Shown one piece after another: positions 3,271 through 51,249 of a DNA stretch of 64,000 nucleotides. Both the position numbers and the translations under genes were made by a program. The notes below the pieces were generated by a model. The model did no database searches. It was not told the DNA's origin and was given only the letters and a program-made list of their open reading frames with translations. How positions within the stretch are numbered: position 1 is the first letter of the stretch; every line of letters starts with the position of its first letter. The DNA comes from Acerihabitans arboris (GTDB lineage Bacteria; Pseudomonadota; Gammaproteobacteria; Enterobacterales; Enterobacteriaceae), in contig NZ_WUBS01000005.1 in assembly GCF_010131535.1 (NCBI RefSeq), positions 62,001 to 126,000 of the forward strand. Direction: 5' to 3'.

Positions 3271-3948
3271 TTAACCGGCCTCTTTCAGGGCGTCCTGGAT
3301 CTGATCGGTCATCATCTTCCAGGCCTGGTGGATATCCGGCGCGTTATTAAACAGACCGGAGGAGCCGACGATAAACACATCGGCGCCCGCCTTGATAAGC
3401 GATCGGTAGGTGCGCCGGTTACAAGAACCGTCGATTTCGATTTCATAATGTAAACCGTGGCCCTCGCGATAGGCCTTGAGCTGGCCGATTTTATCCAGCA
3501 TCTCGGTGATGAAGGGTTGCCCGGCAAAACCGGGATCGACCGTCATCACGGTAATTTTATCCGCCAGGTGAATATAATATTTCATCATCTCGACCGACGA
3601 CTCGGGATTGAGGATTAAACCCACCCCCACGCCCAGCGACCTGATTTTTTCAATCAGCCGGAAGGCCTGGCCGGAAAGCGTTTCCGGATGGAGGGTAATC
3701 ATGCCGGCCCCCGCTTTCGCCAGGGTATCGATGTAATCTTCCGGTCGGGTGACCATCAGATGGCAGTCCAGGGGTTTGCTGGCGAGCCGTTTCACCTGCG
3801 CGACAAAAAACGGCGACAGCGTCAGGTTGGGCACAAAATGCCCGTCCATAATATCGATATGGATATAATCCGCGTGATGATCGATAAATTCTATTTGCTC
3901 TTTAAACTTCAATAAATCCATGCACATCAAAGAAGGAGATATTTTCAT
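3271..3948 (-). CDS. alsE: D-allulose-6-phosphate 3-epimerase
   Basis: TIM-barrel epimerase of the ribulose-phosphate 3-epimerase family. It converts D-allulose 6-phosphate to D-fructose 6-phosphate and so feeds allose into glycolysis. The 225 residues begin MKISPSLM as in E. coli. Metal ligands are visible in HIDIMDGHF (His30, Asp32), in DCHLMV, and in the C-terminal EIDGSCN (catalytic Asp), and the loop VDPGFAGQ is intact. An in-frame GTG lies three codons upstream, directly after the alsC stop. I chose the ATG because AGGTGA lies about five bases before it. It shares the operon with alsC and alsK. Confidence 0.95.
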   Translation of the reverse strand: MKISPSLMCMDLLKFKEQIEFIDHHADYIHIDIMDGHFVPNLTLSPFFVAQVKRLASKPLDCHLMVTRPEDYIDTLAKAGAGMITLHPETLSGQAFRLIEKIRSLGVGVGLILNPESSVEMMKYYIHLADKITVMTVDPGFAGQPFITEMLDKIGQLKAYREGHGLHYEIEIDGSCNRRTYRSLIKAGADVFIVGSSGLFNNAPDIHQAWKMMTDQIQDALKEAG

Positions 3949-6511: not shown

Positions 6512-7447
6512 TTATTTGGTTACCAGAATAGAATCGACGGTTTCTATTTTCGGCTGGGCATCAAGCGCAATCAGCTTGCCGGATTTCACCGTATCCACCA
6601 GGATGGCTAAACCGTTAGCGCCAATTTCAGCCGGATTCTGGGCCACGGTGGCGGTCATCATGCCCTGGGCGACCATTTTTCGGGCCTCGGGCACGCCGTC
6701 GGTGCCGACTACCAGGATCTTGCCGGTCTTTCCCGCGTTGGCCACCGCCTGCGCCACGCCCATCGCCATGGTGTCATTGGCGCAATAGAAGGCCTTCACC
6801 CGGGGGTTGCGCTGCATGACGTTGGTCGCCACGTCCAGGGCCTTGATGCGATCCCAGTCCGCCGGCTGGCTGGCGACCAGTTTGATATGGCTGCCAGCCT
6901 TGAATTGCGCGGTGGCGCCGTTGCGCCGCGCTTCGCCTGAGGCGTTACCGGCCTTGCCTTCGATAATGGCGACTTCGCCGCCTTCGGCGCCTAATGTATC
7001 GATAATAAATTTAGCGCCCTTCGCGCCGACCGCCACATTATCGGTGGTAATAAAGGCTTCAACATTGCCTTTGGCCTTGGCCAGGTTGGCTAAATCGATT
7101 TTTTCGTCCAGGTTAACCAGGTGGATGCCTTTCTGGTACGCCTTGGCGACCGGGATGACCAGATTGACCGCCGATAACGGGGCAAAGGCAATACCTTTAT
7201 AATTCTTATTGGTTAAATCCTCGAATAATTGTAATTGTGATTGGAAGTCGCCTTCCGAAGGCGAGGCGAAAATATCCACGGTGACGCCGAGATCCCGCGC
7301 TTTTTTCTCGATGCCCTGTTTCATCTCAACCCAGAAAGGGTTGGATAATGTTTTCAGGACAACGGCGTAATCGGCCGCCGCATGGGCGACGGTGGATAGC
7401 ATCAGTCCACAGGCGGCGCCTCCGATCAGTTTAATAAATTTATTCAT
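6512..7447 (-). CDS. alsB: D-allose-binding periplasmic protein
   Basis: Periplasmic sugar-binding protein of the ribose-binding (peripla_BP_4) class that delivers D-allose to the AlsC/AlsA permease. It is 311 residues long, the same as in E. coli. An N-terminal signal peptide (two Lys, a hydrophobic core and a THAHAA-like cleavage region around residue 23) is followed by two Rossmann-like lobes. The hinge-region motif VVGTDGVPEA is near residue 235. A GGAGATAG ribosome site precedes the ATG. It is the first structural gene after alsR, and a 56-bp gap to alsA may modulate downstream expression. Confidence 0.94.
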   Translation of the reverse strand: MNKFIKLIGGAACGLMLSTVAHAAADYAVVLKTLSNPFWVEMKQGIEKKARDLGVTVDIFASPSEGDFQSQLQLFEDLTNKNYKGIAFAPLSAVNLVIPVAKAYQKGIHLVNLDEKIDLANLAKAKGNVEAFITTDNVAVGAKGAKFIIDTLGAEGGEVAIIEGKAGNASGEARRNGATAQFKAGSHIKLVASQPADWDRIKALDVATNVMQRNPRVKAFYCANDTMAMGVAQAVANAGKTGKILVVGTDGVPEARKMVAQGMMTATVAQNPAEIGANGLAILVDTVKSGKLIALDAQPKIETVDSILVTK

Positions 7448-26176: not shown

Positions 26177-26824
26177 GTGAATACCGTCTTGCTGACCGGT
26201 TTTGAGCCGTTTGGCGGCGAACGGGTCAATCCCTCATGGGAAGTGGTCAAACAATTCCACGAACGCCGCATCGACGACGCCACGGTAATTGCCTGCCGGC
26301 TGCCCTGCGTCTACGGCCGCTCGGTCCAGGTGTTAAATGGGCTGATTGACCGCCACCGGCCCGCGCTTGTCCTGGCGGTGGGGCAGGCGGGCGGCCGGGC
26401 GGGCCTGTCGGTCGAGCGCGTGTCGATTAACATCGACGATGCGCGCATTGCCGATAACCTTGGCCAGCAGCCCATCGACGTGCCGATCGTCGCCGACGGA
26501 CCGGCGGCCTATTTCGCCACCGTGCCGGTCAAGGCCATGGTCCAGGCCATGCGCGACGCGGGCATCCCGGCCGAGGTATCGCAAAGCGCCGGCACCTATG
26601 TCTGCAACCATGTGATGTACGGGCTGCTGCATTGTCTGGCGCAGCTCGGCTACGGCGCCAGGGGAGGTTTTATCCACACGCCGTATTTACCGCAGCAGGC
26701 GGCGGCGCTGCCCAATGCGCCCAGCATGGCAGCGGACACCATCGCGGCGGGATTGGATATCGCCATCCGCACCGCGCTGCAAACGGAGCATGATCTGAAC
26801 ATTAGCGGCGGCGCGCTCAGCTAA
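26177..26824 (+). CDS. pcp: Pyrrolidone-carboxylate peptidase
   Basis: Cysteine peptidase of family C15 that removes N-terminal pyroglutamate from peptides, releasing 5-oxoproline for PxpABC. With the GTG start at 26177 the protein has 215 residues, the standard length. The catalytic triad is Glu80 (GLSVERV), Cys143 ([13 protein letters not shown]) and His167 ([10 protein letters not shown]). The N-terminus then reads [14 protein letters not shown]. An in-frame ATG six codons upstream lacks a ribosome site. It closes the oxoproline island. Confidence 0.93.
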
Positions 26825-26834
26825 ACCATGAAAA

Positions 26835-26853
26835 ACGCCGCGTGAAGCGGCGT
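26835..26853 (-). terminator. Minus-strand intrinsic terminator facing pcp
   Basis: A perfect 7-bp stem ACGCCGC/GCGGCGT with a 5-nt loop is followed, on the minus strand, by five Ts. On the plus strand only a weak T content follows. It therefore stops transcription coming leftward out of the repeat region or from gltA, and also forms a hairpin at the end of the pcp mRNA. Confidence 0.6.
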
Positions 26854-26882
26854 CGGCTGTTGACAAATCCGCCTCCTTTCTT

Positions 26883-27072
26883 ATGTCGTCTTGGCGAGGG
26901 TTTCGCTTGCGGTGGGTTTTATGTCGCCCCGGAGAGGGCTTCGCTTGCGGTGGGTTTTATGTCGCCCCGGAGAGGGCTTCGCTTGCGGTGGGTTTTATGT
27001 CGCCCCGGAGAGGGCTTCGCTTGCGGTGGGTTTTATGTCGCCTCGGTGGCGGTTTCGCTTGCCATGCGTTGG
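26883..27072 (+). repeat. 38-bp tandem repeat array, left composite element
   Basis: Units begin with ATGTCG at 26883, 26921, 26959, 26997 and 27035, an exact 38-bp period. The three central units are identical, and the first and last are divergent. Because 38 is not a multiple of three, the array reads in all three frames without stops, which creates overlapping open frames of no likely meaning. A perfect TTGACA stands at 26860-26865, just before the first unit. Confidence 0.9.
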
Positions 27073-27300
27073 GTGGTTATTGGTATTGCCGGGTGCCGGC
27101 AAGCAACCAGAGGGACCGTTCGCCCGGTCCCTCTGGACTCCCATGCGTCCGGCAGGTCGTGCGCCGCTGCGCGGTCCCCGGCATCGCCCCATCCCGGCTT
27201 TTGGACCGCCCGGGATGCGCTCCCGGCGCAACCCGGGCTTTCGCCGCTCCCGGCGGCTCATCCAGCCGTGATTTGCGCCGCCGGCGCACTCTATGCCGGC
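27073..27300 (+). repeat. Structured tail of left composite element
   Basis: After the 38-bp array comes a constant stretch of about 40 bp, shared almost base for base with the right copy. It contains a hairpin TTGCCGG-GTG-CCGGCAA (27086-27102). Next is a perfect 12-bp hairpin with loop TTCGCC (27107-27136). The 164-bp tail carries further short hairpins (CCGGGA-TGCGC-TCCCGG, GCCGC-TCCCG-GCGGC) and ends CTCTATGCCGGC. The right copy has the same order and spacing in inverse orientation. Nature unknown: a structured RNA or a non-autonomous repeat. Confidence 0.75.
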
Positions 27301-27623
27301 ACAAGGTCAACACCACCGTCTGCAAGAGAAGGCGTTTTTTGTTTGTTGATAGGAGTATGCATATACCGGGAAAAAAAACGGCGGTAATTTTTGGCTAAAG
27401 GCTAAAGGCTAAAGGCTAAAGGCTAAAGGCTAAAGGCTAAAGGCTAAAGGCTAAAGGCTAAAGGCTAAAGGCTAAAGGCTAAAGGCTTATGCCGGATGAC
27501 CTGATTTTCGCTGTGCCAGTTGCATCCCATAATGATTAGCAGTATCTCAATCTATACTTCCTGCCCCTCAACACCAGCAACGCTATAGCTTAATAAAAAA
27601 GCATTGCTAACAGCGACATTTGG
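27301..27623. other. Central segment between the two inverted composite elements
   Basis: About 320 bp with no recognisable gene. It holds the GGCTAAA satellite and AT-richer DNA on either side with T-tracts (27336-27341) and A-tracts (27371-27378 and 27595-27600). No transposase, integrase or reverse-transcriptase frame is present. Confidence 0.6.
27393..27483. repeat. Heptamer satellite (GGCTAAA)13
   Basis: Thirteen exact head-to-tail copies of GGCTAAA with no mismatch, followed by a partial GGCT. It is in non-coding DNA between the two composite elements. Perfect homogeneity suggests recent slippage expansion, so the copy number is likely variable between strains. Confidence 0.97.
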
Positions 27624-27870
27624 GCCGGCATAGAGCGCGCTGACGGAGCCAGTGACCCCGGCACGAGCCGCCGGGAGCGGCTCGAGGCCCGGTTGCGCCG
27701 GGAGCGCATCCGGGCCGGTGCATAACGGGGGAACTGGCGCAGGAAGGCATCGCGCAGCGACGCGCGACCTGCCGGACGCGCGGAGGTCAAGGAGGGTGTC
27801 GCGAAACACCCTCCTTGTCGCTTGCCGGCACCCGGCAATACCAATAACCACCCAACGCAAGGCAAGCGAA
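27624..27870 (-). repeat. Structured tail of right composite element
   Basis: Read on the minus strand, this repeats the layout of the left copy: the constant stretch with the TTGCCGG/CCGGCAA hairpin, a perfect 12-bp hairpin with a 6-nt loop (27788-27817), and a tail ending CTCTATGCCGGC at 27624. The distance from the hairpin to that end motif is 152 bp in both copies. The hairpin stem differs from the left copy at seven of twelve positions, yet every pair is kept. Confidence 0.75.
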
Positions 27871-28069
27871 ACCCTCGCCGGGGTGACATAAACCTTACCG
27901 CAAACCACCCCTCGCCGGGGTGACATAAACCTTACCGCAAACCACCCCTCGCCGGGGTGACATAAACCTTACCGCAAGCCACCCCTCGCCGGGGTGACAT
28001 AAACCTTACCGCAAGCCACCCCTCGCCGGGGCGACATAAAGCTACCGCAAGCGAAACCTTCTTCTCCTT
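27871..28069 (-). repeat. 37-bp tandem repeat array, right composite element
   Basis: The motif TGACATAA or its variant recurs at 27884, 27921, 27958, 27995 and 28032, an exact 37-bp period. On the minus strand the unit reads like the left-hand 38-bp unit (ATGTCACCCCGG, GAGGGG, TTGCGGT), one base shorter. Units within the array are more alike than they are to the left array. Confidence 0.9.
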
Positions 28070-28195
28070 TATCCACAACCTCACGCCGCATAAAGCAGCC
28101 TCAGCCCATGAAAAAACTAAACTAATAGCAGGTATGCTAAAGGGATAACGTGCCCATGAGGCCGGCCCGCCGACAACGGCCTCAACGTGTCGGGC

Positions 28196-29476
28196 TTATT
28201 TGATCTGCGAGGTAAATTCGCGTTTGTCATACCCGGTGTACAACTGGCGCGGACGGGCGATCTTGACGCCGTCGTCATGCATTTCCTTCCAATGGGCAAT
28301 CCAGCCCACGGTGCGCGCCATGGCGAAGATCACGGTAAACATGGTCGACGGAATGCCCATGGCCTTCAGGATAATGCCTGAATAGAAATCCACGTTCGGG
28401 TACAGCTTCTTCTCGATAAAGTAAGGGTCGTGCAGGGCAATATGCTCAAGCTCCATGGCCACCGCCAGCAGATCGTCCGACAGCTTAAGCTCCTTAAGCA
28501 CTTCATGACAGGTCTCGCGCATCACGGTGGCGCGCGGATCGTAGTTCTTATAGACCCGATGACCAAAGCCCATCAGGCGGAAGGAATCGTTTTTGTCCTT
28601 GGCGCGTTCAATAAACGCCGGGATATGCTCGACGCTCGAAATCTCTTCCAGCATGCGCAGGGTCGCCTCGTTGGCGCCGCCATGGGCCGGCCCCCACAAC
28701 GAGGCAATGCCCGCAGCGATACAGGCAAACGGATTGGCGCCCGACGAACCGGCGGTACGCACGGTAGAGGTCGACGCGTTTTGCTCGTGATCCGCGTGCA
28801 GGATTAAAATCCGGTCCATGGCGCGTTCCAGCACCGGGTTCACCACGTACTCCTCGCACGGGGTGGAGAACATCATATGCAGGAAGTTACCGGCATAAGA
28901 AAGATCGTTACGCGGATACACAAACGGCTGGCCGATGGAATATTTGTAACACATCGCGGCAACCGTCGGCATTTTGGACAATAAACGGAACGCCGCGATT
29001 TCACGGTGGCGCTCCACGTTTACGTCCAGCGAGTCATGATAGAAGGCCGCCAGCGCGCCGGTCACGCCGCACAGTACCGCCATCGGATGCGAATCGCGGC
29101 GAAAGCCGTTGAACAGACGGGTGATCTGCTCGTGCACCATGGTATGGCGGGTCACGATATCGCGGAATTCATCATACTGCTCCCTGGTCGGCGCTTCGCC
29201 GTTCAGCAGGATATAGCAGACTTCAAGAAAGTTGGAGTGCAGGGCCAGTTGATCAATAGGAAAGCCGCGATGCAGCAAAATGCCTTCGTCACCGTCGATA
29301 TAGGTTATTTTTGATTCACAGGACGCGGTGGAGGTAAAGCCGGGATCAAAGGTAAAATAGCCCTTGCCGCCCAGGGTGCGGATATCGATTTCTTTGGCAC
29401 CCAGGGTGCCGGTCAACACATCCAGTTCGATTGGCGCTTCCCCGGGTAGGTTCAGTGTCGCTTTATTGTCTGCCAT
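28196..29476 (-). CDS. gltA: Citrate synthase
   Basis: Condenses acetyl-CoA and oxaloacetate to citrate, the entry step of the TCA cycle. It is 426 residues (E. coli 427) and of the hexameric, NADH-inhibited type found in enterobacteria. The catalytic region shows [15 protein letters not shown] and [14 protein letters not shown], with the active-site histidines in these two motifs and the aspartate further on. A GGAGAT ribosome site precedes the ATG. It is divergent from sdhCDAB across a 634-bp control region. Downstream lies the repeat region. Confidence 0.98.
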
Positions 29477-49008: not shown

Positions 49009-49524
49009 ATGCAACTGAACAAAGTGCTAAAAGGGCTGATGCTGGCCGTGCCTGTACTGGCTATCGCCGCGTGTAGTTCCCACAAAAGCGCTAACAATGG
49101 CGCGGATTCTGCCATGGGCGCTGGCACTGGCATGGACAATGCAAGCGGCGCCAACTCTTCATCTGAAGAACAGGCTCGCCTGCAGATGCAAGAACTGCAA
49201 AGGAACAATATCGTTTACTTCGATCTTGATAAGTACGATATCCGTTCTGATTTTGCCCAGATGCTGGATGCACATGCTAACTTCCTGCGCAGCAACCCAT
49301 CCTATAAAGTGACCGTTGAAGGCCATGCGGATGAACGCGGTACGCCGGAATATAACATCGCCCTGGGCGAACGTCGCGCCAACGCCGTGAAGATGTATCT
49401 TCAGGGTAAAGGCGTGTCTGCCGATCAAATCTCTATCGTATCTTACGGTAAAGAGAAACCGGCTGTACTGGGACATGACGAATCGGCTTACGCTAAAAAC
49501 CGTCGTGCCGTACTGGTATACTAA
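49009..49524 (+). CDS. pal: Peptidoglycan-associated lipoprotein Pal
   Basis: Outer-membrane lipoprotein that binds peptidoglycan through an OmpA-like domain and TolB/TolA on the periplasmic side. It is 171 residues. The lipobox is AIAAC with the acylated Cys22. A Ser/Gly/Ala-rich linker follows, then the OmpA domain from about residue 65, with [22 protein letters not shown] as the diaminopimelate-binding motif. It lies 43 bp after tolB. Confidence 0.97.
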
Positions 49525-49533
49525 GAGAATTGC

Positions 49534-50340
49534 ATGAGCGGTAACTTCAGACATTATCTGTTAAGTCTGTCGTTACTGGTTGGCGTAGCGGCCCCCTGGG
49601 CCGCTACTGCCCAAGCGCCAATCAGTAATGTCGGCTCCGGCTCGGTGGAAGATCGGGTCACTCAACTTGAGCGTATTTCCAACGCTCACGGCCAGCTATT
49701 AACTCAACTTCAGCAACAGCTTTCCGACACCCAGCGTGATATCGACTCTTTACGGGGGCAAATCCAGGAAAACCAGTACCAGCTTTCCCAGGTAGTGGAA
49801 CGCCAGAAGCAAATCTATCAGCAAATGGACAGCCTCAGCAGCAAGGGCGGTCAGGATGCGGCTTTACCCGACAGCGGTGCCGGTAACAGCGGCGCGGCAA
49901 CCTCGTCCACCGGCGGCAGCCAGGATGCGGCGGCGCCTGCGGCAACGTCGGCCGGCAGCAGCACCGGTGACGCCAATACCGATTACAACGCGGCGGTGGC
50001 TTTGGTGCTGGAGAAAAAACAGTACGATCAGGGCATCACGGCGTTTCAGAATTTTGTTAAACGTTATCCGGATTCAACCTACCAGCCCAATGCCAATTAT
50101 TGGCTCGGTCAGTTGAACTACAACAAAGGTAAAAAAGACGATGCGGCTTACTACTTTGCCCTGGTCGTCAAAAATTACCCCAAGTCGCCAAAAAGCTCCG
50201 AAGCCCTGTTTAAAGTTGGGGTAATCATGCAGGAAAAAGGCCAGACCGACAAAGCCAAGGCCGTTTACCAGCAGGTTATCAAACTTTATCCAACTACCGA
50301 TTCTGCCAAACAAGCGCAAAAACGGCTGGCCAGTCTTTAA
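49534..50340 (+). CDS. cpoB: Cell division coordinator CpoB
   Basis: Periplasmic protein (formerly YbgF) that links Tol-Pal with PBP1B at the division site. It is 268 residues. The signal peptide ends near AATAQA. A trimeric coiled coil (about 35-105, VEDRVTQLERISNAHGQL) is followed by a low-complexity Ser/Gly/Ala linker and three TPR repeats (YQPNANYWLGQLNYNKGKKDDA, YPKSPKSSEALFKVG). It starts nine bases after pal and ends the operon. Confidence 0.95.
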   Translation: MSGNFRHYLLSLSLLVGVAAPWAATAQAPISNVGSGSVEDRVTQLERISNAHGQLLTQLQQQLSDTQRDIDSLRGQIQENQYQLSQVVERQKQIYQQMDSLSSKGGQDAALPDSGAGNSGAATSSTGGSQDAAAPAATSAGSSTGDANTDYNAAVALVLEKKQYDQGITAFQNFVKRYPDSTYQPNANYWLGQLNYNKGKKDDAAYYFALVVKNYPKSPKSSEALFKVGVIMQEKGQTDKAKAVYQQVIKLYPTTDSAKQAQKRLASL

Positions 50341-50766: not shown

Positions 50767-51249
50767 TCGTCAAAGAACATCACTTGCTAAAAAATCAAAT
50801 CAGAGCTGGTATAACGCACGCATCGTGCGGATTTGAACCTGCGCAGGTTCGAGTCGAGCGCAGCGAGCCAGCGTTGCCGGAACGGCAACGACCCGAAGGG
50901 CGAGGCCAACGGCCGAGTCATCCTGTACGTGCGCGGTCAGTGACTACAGCGATCCGCACTCTCACTATTTCTGCCTTACTATTTACTCCTCACTCCTAAT
51001 ATTTTGCGACTTTGCGCTCCATATCGCACTTATCGGCTAGTGTGTCGCCGTAAAATCCATTATCGTTTCGCCATTAATCCCCGCCAATCTGCCCAAAGTC
51101 ATATTAACTAAACAAAAACATAAAAAATCACAAAATTAACAGGACTTTTTGTTCAAAATTGATTATTTTGTTTAGTATATAAAACATGCGCCATCTTGAC
51201 CGTCTGGCTGCCGTTGTCGGCGCCCGGCCCATGCGCGGGGACCTACACA
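50767..51249. other. Structured gap between tRNA-Lys and nadA
   Basis: The first part (50835-50945) is dense in dyads: GAACCTGCGCAGGTTC, a perfect 16-bp palindrome (50835-50850); CGTTGCCG-GAA-CGGCAACG (50872-50890); and GGCC-AAC-GGCC. The GGTTCGAGTC next to the palindrome resembles a tRNA T-arm. No intact gene is present. The second half is AT-rich and holds the nadA control sites. Confidence 0.55.
51107..51185 (+). promoter_or_regulatory. Candidate NadR operator sites upstream of nadA
   Basis: TGTTTA (51169-51174) and TAAACA (51180-51185) form a dyad five bases apart, the half-site pattern of the NAD repressor NadR. An extra half-site, TAAACA (51109-51114), lies further upstream. ACTAAACAAAA (51107-51117) and TTTTGTTTAGT (51166-51176) are perfect 11-bp inverted copies. 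The dyad is 65 bp before nadA and overlaps a possible -10 (TAGTAT). Confidence 0.6.

Follow-up and report, generated by a model that had tools for sequence, protein, structure and literature searches.

The window, i.e., the whole analysed stretch of 64 kb, carries two inverted copies of a structured repeat of around 226 bp, whose 3′ ends face each other and which are flanked by what we take to be pcp-like and gltA-like reading frames, named by reading of their translations. The variable hairpin singled out in an initial annotation of this DNA (hairpin B) is one domain of this repeat; the other parts are listed in Table 1. The units of the 37- and 38-bp tandem arrays resemble the start of the element, and similar arrays occur on the same side of several other copies in the same genome. 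Microsatellite-like runs likewise adjoin several copies (the array at 27393-27487; loci L014, L018, L039 and L049), with a unit that differs each time (GGCTAAA, CCCAAAT, GGTCAT, GGATTT and AAATTC). Elsewhere in the window, Rfam matches to CpoB_ybgF_thermometer and RtT RNA are found at 49425-49563 and 50811-50937. The genome as a whole comprises eight full copies and one internally deleted copy (E below 1e-28), followed by five weaker matches.

Table 1. Parts of the two repeat copies and adjoining arrays, in window coordinates.
Feature	Position	Strand	Basis
Left copy of the ~226-bp repeat	27085..27310	+	model R1, 236.6 bits, E 2.8e-67; copy itself in model
Right copy of the ~226-bp repeat	27618..27839	-	model R1, 201.7 bits, E 6.9e-57; copy itself in model
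Hairpin A left, TTGCCGG-GTG-CCGGCAA	27086..27102	+	sequence, fold
Hairpin A right	27822..27838	-	sequence
Hairpin B left, purine-rich 5′ arm R	27107..27118	+	sequence
Hairpin B left, loop	27119-27124	+	sequence
Hairpin B left, pyrimidine-rich 3′ arm Y	27125..27136	+	sequence
Third-strand segment D left, CTCCC, mirrors Y positions 4-8	27138..27142	+	sequence; mirror rule tests
Hairpin B right, 12 bp, loop TTCGCG	27788..27817	-	sequence
Third-strand segment D right, CCTCC, mirrors its own Y positions 4-8	27782..27786	-	sequence
Closing stem, 5′ side CCGGCA, partner 27294-27299	27149..27154	+	alignment A2 fold; single-strand DNA fold
First inner hairpin, loop TCCCG (complement strand CGGGA)	27209..27237	+	alignment fold, A5 covariation
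Second inner hairpin, loop TCCCG	27243..27257	+	alignment fold, A5 covariation
38-bp tandem array, 5′ edge of left copy	26881..27062		unit carries GGTTTCGCTTGC-like element start
37-bp tandem array, 5′ edge of right copy	27872..28050		sequence
(GGCTAAA)13.6 array between the facing 3′ ends	27393..27487		sequence

As the initial annotation had described, both hairpins B combine a 12-bp stem with a 6-nt loop starting with TTCGC. The left one (27107-27136) has the stem CCAGAGGGACCG/CGGTCCCTCTGG and the loop TTCGCC, and the right one, read on the minus strand, has the stem CAAGGAGGGTGT/ACACCCTCCTTG and the loop TTCGCG. Seven of the 12 stem positions differ between the copies (2, 5, 6, 9, 10, 11 and 12), and pairing is indeed preserved, with 12/12 Watson-Crick pairs on either side. 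The reported near-identity of the 40 or so bases 5′ of the hairpin was reproduced (39/40 match), and the constant hairpin A is present in both copies, inverted in the right one. On the 3′ side, the copies agree at only 28/34 bases, a poorer match that is itself informative with regard to the third strand discussed below. Across the 64-kb window, the two hairpins B are the only perfect hairpins of at least 12 bp (loop 3-10), and none occurs in 10 dinucleotide shuffles of the window.

The check proposed at the time, i.e., gathering further copies and building a covariance model, was carried out, and covariation exceeds that of shuffled controls. In alignment A5 (76 distinct rows), 90.4% of the cells pair and 47 of the 54 pairs show double changes, with a covariation score of 0.405 compared to 0.128 when shuffled and at most 0.072 when slid. 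Alignment A4 (121 distinct rows) gives 87.0% paired cells, double changes at 52 of 54 pairs and a score of 0.464, versus 0.153 (shuffled) and at most 0.068 (slid). Most of the ~226-bp element covaries, beyond hairpin B. For hairpin B itself, 95.9% of the cells are paired in A5, with double changes at 9/9 pairs; in A4, the seven outer pairs are 96.2% paired and the two inner ones 82.9%, every pair having double changes, where both alignments were fitted to the R1 structure that includes the hairpin B stem. A separate finder, which selects the best-pairing stretch of every copy and therefore leans to pairing, gave 1109 Watson-Crick pairs out of 1171 in 102 distinct equal-armed hairpins B; the copies are related, and neither these pairing counts nor the mirror counts below are independent events. 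Broken pairing in additional copies, named beforehand as an observation that would speak against structure, was encountered in part: 55 of the 102 hairpins are perfect and 62 of the 1171 pairs are not Watson-Crick.

A mutational effect could leave a similar trace. If template switching within hairpins rewrites one arm from its partner, perfect palindromes are maintained in the absence of selection, in keeping with a perfect stem in just over half of the distinct hairpins and with the rarity of both kinds of wobble mismatch (G.T 26 and A.C 16 of 1171 pairs). The long-range closing stems with double changes are not readily explained in this manner. The original argument for selection on structure holds insofar as compensation extends beyond two copies, with covariation in A4 and A5 and double changes at every hairpin B pair. 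It falls short in that a duplex alone leaves unexplained both the covariation across most of the ~226 bp and a 3′ segment that mirrors the 3′ arm.

This segment, D, was numbered d1 onwards from the end of the stem, the purine arm r1 onwards from its base and the partner arm y1 onwards. The mutual information of r and d peaks along r = d+2 (r4-d2 0.61, r5-d3 0.51, r8-d6 0.50), with a maximum of 0.31 off this line; one of 210 copies was left out in parsing, and three parses with fewer than 8 pairs were left out of this measure. G in the arm goes with C in D, and A goes with T; at d2, A faces A instead (r4-d2 pairs in 114 copies: G/C 51, A/A 40, others 23). In the window, GAGGG is thus matched by CTCCC in the left copy and GGAGG by CCTCC in the right copy. 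Across 114 distinct parsed copies, segment D mirrors the 3′ arm in its variation, with the register staying the same throughout; two of these copies are from locus L184, and the others are from named Enterobacterales or the own family. The mirror matches 434 of 570 positions, compared to a mean of 324 (sd 7.3; highest of 5000, 349) when D is shuffled among all copies, with the register rule found on the same copies and three copies with fewer than three purines in the arm left out of the register tests. Within 21 one-genome copy groups, 378 matches are observed versus 327 (sd 6.6) on shuffling, and 0/5000 shuffles reach the observed value; only G000 (the own genome), G008, G024 and G025 reach 0.05 alone, and no mirror signal is seen within G027 (47 vs. 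46.8) or G032 (15 vs. 15.2). With the rule already fixed, later-fetched copies match at 51/70 positions (shuffles 46.2, sd 1.4; 2/5000 reach), in a set of 21 copies of which 14 are distinct, 13 of these from Pectobacterium and the lone Klebsiella variant already seen in L231. Part of the mirror signal reflects C runs whose length follows that of the G runs, most of all in these later-fetched copies. An A in the stem has its matching T at the predicted place in D in 39 of 50 cases, elsewhere in two and not at all in nine.

The direction of this correspondence is parallel. At their best registers, D and the arm match at 412/570 positions in parallel, and antiparallel pairing of D with the purine arm was discarded, reaching at most 325/570; in the 90 asymmetric copies, the mirror matches 320/450 positions and the antiparallel reading at most 233. 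Taken singly with free registers, 41 of these 90 copies fit better in parallel, 18 in antiparallel and 31 tie. Such a mirror amounts to parallel complementarity, which antiparallel Watson-Crick pairing cannot read but a triple helix can. Template switching cannot yield a mirror repeat, because copying needs antiparallel pairing; it is already disfavoured as a source of D, and we regard it as very unlikely for the element. At positions where the two arms conflict, D agrees with Y in 28 cases, with R in six and with neither in 13, as expected if the complement of D meets the purine opposite Y in a purine-motif triplex on the G-rich strand; alternatively, R may simply mutate more often.

We infer from these sequence patterns that the two arms and D may form an intrastrand triple helix, of the purine motif on the G-rich strand, and that the other strand of the element could adopt a pyrimidine-motif triplex. 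Under such a fold, selection would keep three matching blocks rather than a sequence. The A at d2 corresponds to T.A-T on the G-rich strand, a triad described as allowed in the purine motif (PMC4666352). The third strand matches five triads in each window copy and eight in L110 as well as in L330. Window copies stay below the six or more triads per block asked for in the ITxF definition of intrastrand triplexes, and below the 6-nt minimum given for a published triplex finder (PMC4666352), while their third block does mirror the neighbouring arm as in that definition.

In the distant copies found through model R2, the 5′ arm is of the pyrimidine type, and both the 3′ arm and D are of the purine type. 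The mirror in these copies, at a register of +4 chosen on the same copies as tested, matches 121/141 positions in 18 distinct copies from nine genomes, compared to at most 74/144 for other mirror registers, at most 90/144 for a direct-repeat reading and 0/5000 shuffles. These 18 remain after 13 of 31 distant loci were left out for lacking a pyrimidine-rich 5′ arm, for having fewer than 9 pairs or as duplicates; among the 13, L333 belongs to another family of the order and retains the enterobacterial arm order. If swapped and enterobacterial copies are one family, the mirror outlived an exchange of arm chemistry.

Model R1 has matches in 14 of 60 genomes. All 14, the own genome among them, belong to the own family, which contributes 36 genomes, and the 24 genomes of other families have none; this is a lower bound, since filtering was strict and no more than 37 candidates were scored in any one genome. 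R1 finds no copy in the congeners G002 and G005, in which the same neighbours, judged by eye, are separated by just a short gap that lacks the element. A named scan yielded at least 120 stretches, 80 of which were listed; matches among those listed come from Enterobacter, Citrobacter, Kluyvera, Klebsiella, Leclercia, Lelliottia and Silvania, and also from Pantoea, Pectobacterium, Rahnella, Escherichia and others, with six of the 80 loci left out of model scoring. Seven of the 80 lie outside Enterobacterales, of which only L184 matched the model, weakly: this facing pair of weak matches (3415-3853) lies on an Ectothiorhodospiraceae metagenome contig, far from Enterobacterales. Copy numbers per genome vary from 43 in Pantoea Mb-10, 23 in Pectobacterium polonicum and 21 in Enterobacter hormaechei to 11 in Citrobacter freundii, 10 in Klebsiella pneumoniae, six (weak) in Rahnella and two in E. 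coli E69. Across the class, R2 matched 12 of 274 genomes, own genome included, with only eight candidates scored per genome. With an E. coli copy as the blastn query, matches were obtained in 5375 of 5426 complete E. coli genomes, at a median of three places; in 5335 genomes, at least 80% of the query is covered, and no annotated feature lies beneath the 15 E. coli matches listed. The window copy is absent from the plasmid and phage collections. For the E. coli copy, phage carriage was dismissed, with no match in the phage collection, and so was plasmid carriage: its 34 'plasmid' records are all non-mobilizable and several are chromosome-sized.

Neighbouring copies mostly face each other. With all positions transcribed by hand, enterobacterial neighbours up to 1.5 kb apart comprise 32 convergent, 15 tandem and no divergent pairs, apart from four further tandem pairs in the L194 genome that were set aside as possible repeats. 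Distant neighbours within 1.5 kb comprise three convergent pairs and one divergent pair (G223, 178 bp apart). A strict absence of back-to-back pairs was rejected, given this pair and an enterobacterial divergent pair just past the cut (G065, 1502 bp). For one pair of facing copies (G025 3065575+/3070203-), a transposase in between was considered and rejected, as the two long reading frames there look like ordinary genes by reading. Strain-dependent orientation is seen at the same E. coli intergenic sites (L295 1034-1250 and L192; L325 and L326). In dusC-yohP and lysO-aqpZ, the element points in opposite directions in K-12 versus HH97 or E69, with flanks that are 99.8-100% identical between strains for the former and 98.1% and 95.4% for the latter and elements that are 94.5% and 91.6% identical. 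Short stretches between the conserved flank and the element also differ, which speaks against a simple in-place inversion; that a facing pair has lost one of its members seems the more likely cause.

Of 77 flanking-gene contexts, in a crude count from the longest reading frames only, 38 are convergent, 34 co-oriented and five divergent. These contexts, the extragenic position and the many copies would suit an ordinary REP/BIME-like palindrome or a transcription terminator without any triplex. We nonetheless consider this account highly improbable, as the element is a covarying structure of 226 bp instead of a palindrome of 20-40 bp, hairpin B is not followed by a T run, and terminator-like sites in 26800-28200 number three versus 2.7 in shuffles. 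The Y1_Tnp profile (PF01797) that marks REP/BIME repeats with a RAYT was not found in the own genome, and a RAYT partner was accordingly rejected.

A more serious alternative is a structured RNA read from the complementary strand, either a free small RNA or part of message 3′ ends, with GGA loops that bind CsrA/RsmA; only loops and pairing would then matter, hence the variable stems. Such an RNA would be a relative of the TwoAYGGAY motif (Rfam RF01731), for which CsrA binding has been proposed (PMC4333381), and in 7 of 11 distant loci the complement strand of the element exceeds the gathering threshold of RF01731. On that strand, CA-N-GGA-TG occurs in 146 of 177 distinct full copies, only 22 of them with two, and in none on the element strand; A.GGA occurs 394 times compared to 193.7 in shuffles, with 215 of the 394 in loops of stems of at least 5 bp. 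The preference of copies for gene 3′ sides, from the crude count above, fits as well. The wobble pairs give no RNA-only reading, their signs differing between helices: hairpin B has an excess of A.C, i.e., G.U on the complement (20 vs. 2 of 629; 25 vs. 6 of 994), whereas the closing stem shows the opposite bias (11 vs. 1 in A5, 29 vs. 8 in A4). Moreover, RF01731 misses the window copies both at gathering (43 bits) and at E 1, their loops reading CGGGA instead of AYGGAY, and 26800-28200 contains no promoter-like sites, with 0.6 expected in shuffles. The RNA account also leaves the mirrored third strand unexplained; purine-motif triplexes are said not to form in RNA (PMC4666352). On balance, we deem the RNA account unlikely.

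The purine/pyrimidine swap leans towards DNA; the conserved GGA loops of the complement strand lean towards RNA and, together with the A.C excess in hairpin B, speak against a DNA-level fold. Given that purine-motif triplexes are said not to form in RNA and that, through the swap, the purines change strands, a fold at the DNA level is the simpler reading. Our main reading, with a probability of roughly 0.5, is that hairpin B is the triplex domain of an extragenic interspersed repeat of ~226 bp that is able to fold along its whole length once a strand is released. The change of D in step with the stem suggests that evolution preserves a three-stranded fold. The element would then work at the level of DNA and fold downstream of genes, wherever replication or transcription leaves DNA single-stranded. 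Such a fold might be the handle by which copies stall replication, recombine, get lost or spread, and could explain why copies persist in gaps away from promoters. A wider reading, which we put forward tentatively and with the odds leaning against it, is a Gammaproteobacteria-wide DNA family selected for a three-stranded fold, with the DNA fold rather than an RNA as the heritable function and with BoxC and TwoAYGGAY as pieces of one superfamily. If true, three blocks co-vary in nature, and arms are exchanged while the triplex geometry is kept.

No title or abstract on the longer ~226-bp element was found in the literature searched, with most subscription papers outside reach. The 152-bp RSA repeat of E. 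coli is possibly its E. coli form. Among known families, TwoAYGGAY (covered in PMC2864571, PMC4333381, PMC11701678, PMC7657543 and PMC11661157) resembles the element in its adjacent pair of GGA-loop inner hairpins, its outer helices and its copies in Gammaproteobacteria, and the 3′ half of the element appears to be related to it on the opposite strand. In the L328 alignment, which ends just after the closing helices and before hairpin B and D, the first and second inner hairpins presumably take the positions of its two AYGGAY-type loops. RF01731 gives sub-cut-off matches, not all at the element, in four of six enterobacterial loci and none in the other two, and A[CT]GGA[CT] occurs on the complement strand in 74/177 copies, only one of which has two. 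ERIC, YPAL/RU-2, RU-3 and REP/BIME are likewise extragenic enterobacterial repeats with hairpins, but differ in length and have long stem-loops, with no third-strand block, in the passages on them in PMC2229807 and PMC2267715.

BoxC (PIT, TM_ECO) is similar in being extragenic, G/C-rich and enterobacterial, with a hairpin plus third block and 10 of 23 K-12 copies in inverted pairs (PMC4666352). It differs in its 37-nt consensus of high identity and its block order, Y-R-third R on the G-rich strand compared to third R-R-Y in the element. The BoxC pattern CCCTCNCCC-N3-6-GGGNGAGGG-N3-GGGNGAGGG has no match in the window and 45 occurrences in 296 partly overlapping loci. In eight loci, it shares the strand of the element and lies around 90 bp to its 5′ side (L171 7180-7214, with the element at 7270; L178, L181, L209, L219, L225, L230 and L241). 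With its swapped-copy block order, BoxC might be a stray hairpin B. Its in vitro triplex has been tied to genomic variability, and in vivo DMS footprinting gave no protection (PMC4666352). The case for bacterial intrastrand triplexes rests, in the same source, on sequence potential and test-tube folding, and covariation or compensation is not mentioned in its available text. Compared to this, a third strand that co-varies with the stem at a constant register, and still does so after the arms have exchanged their chemistry, would provide evolutionary evidence for a fold kept in cells, and the relative present in nearly all complete E. coli genomes makes the question directly testable in laboratory strains.
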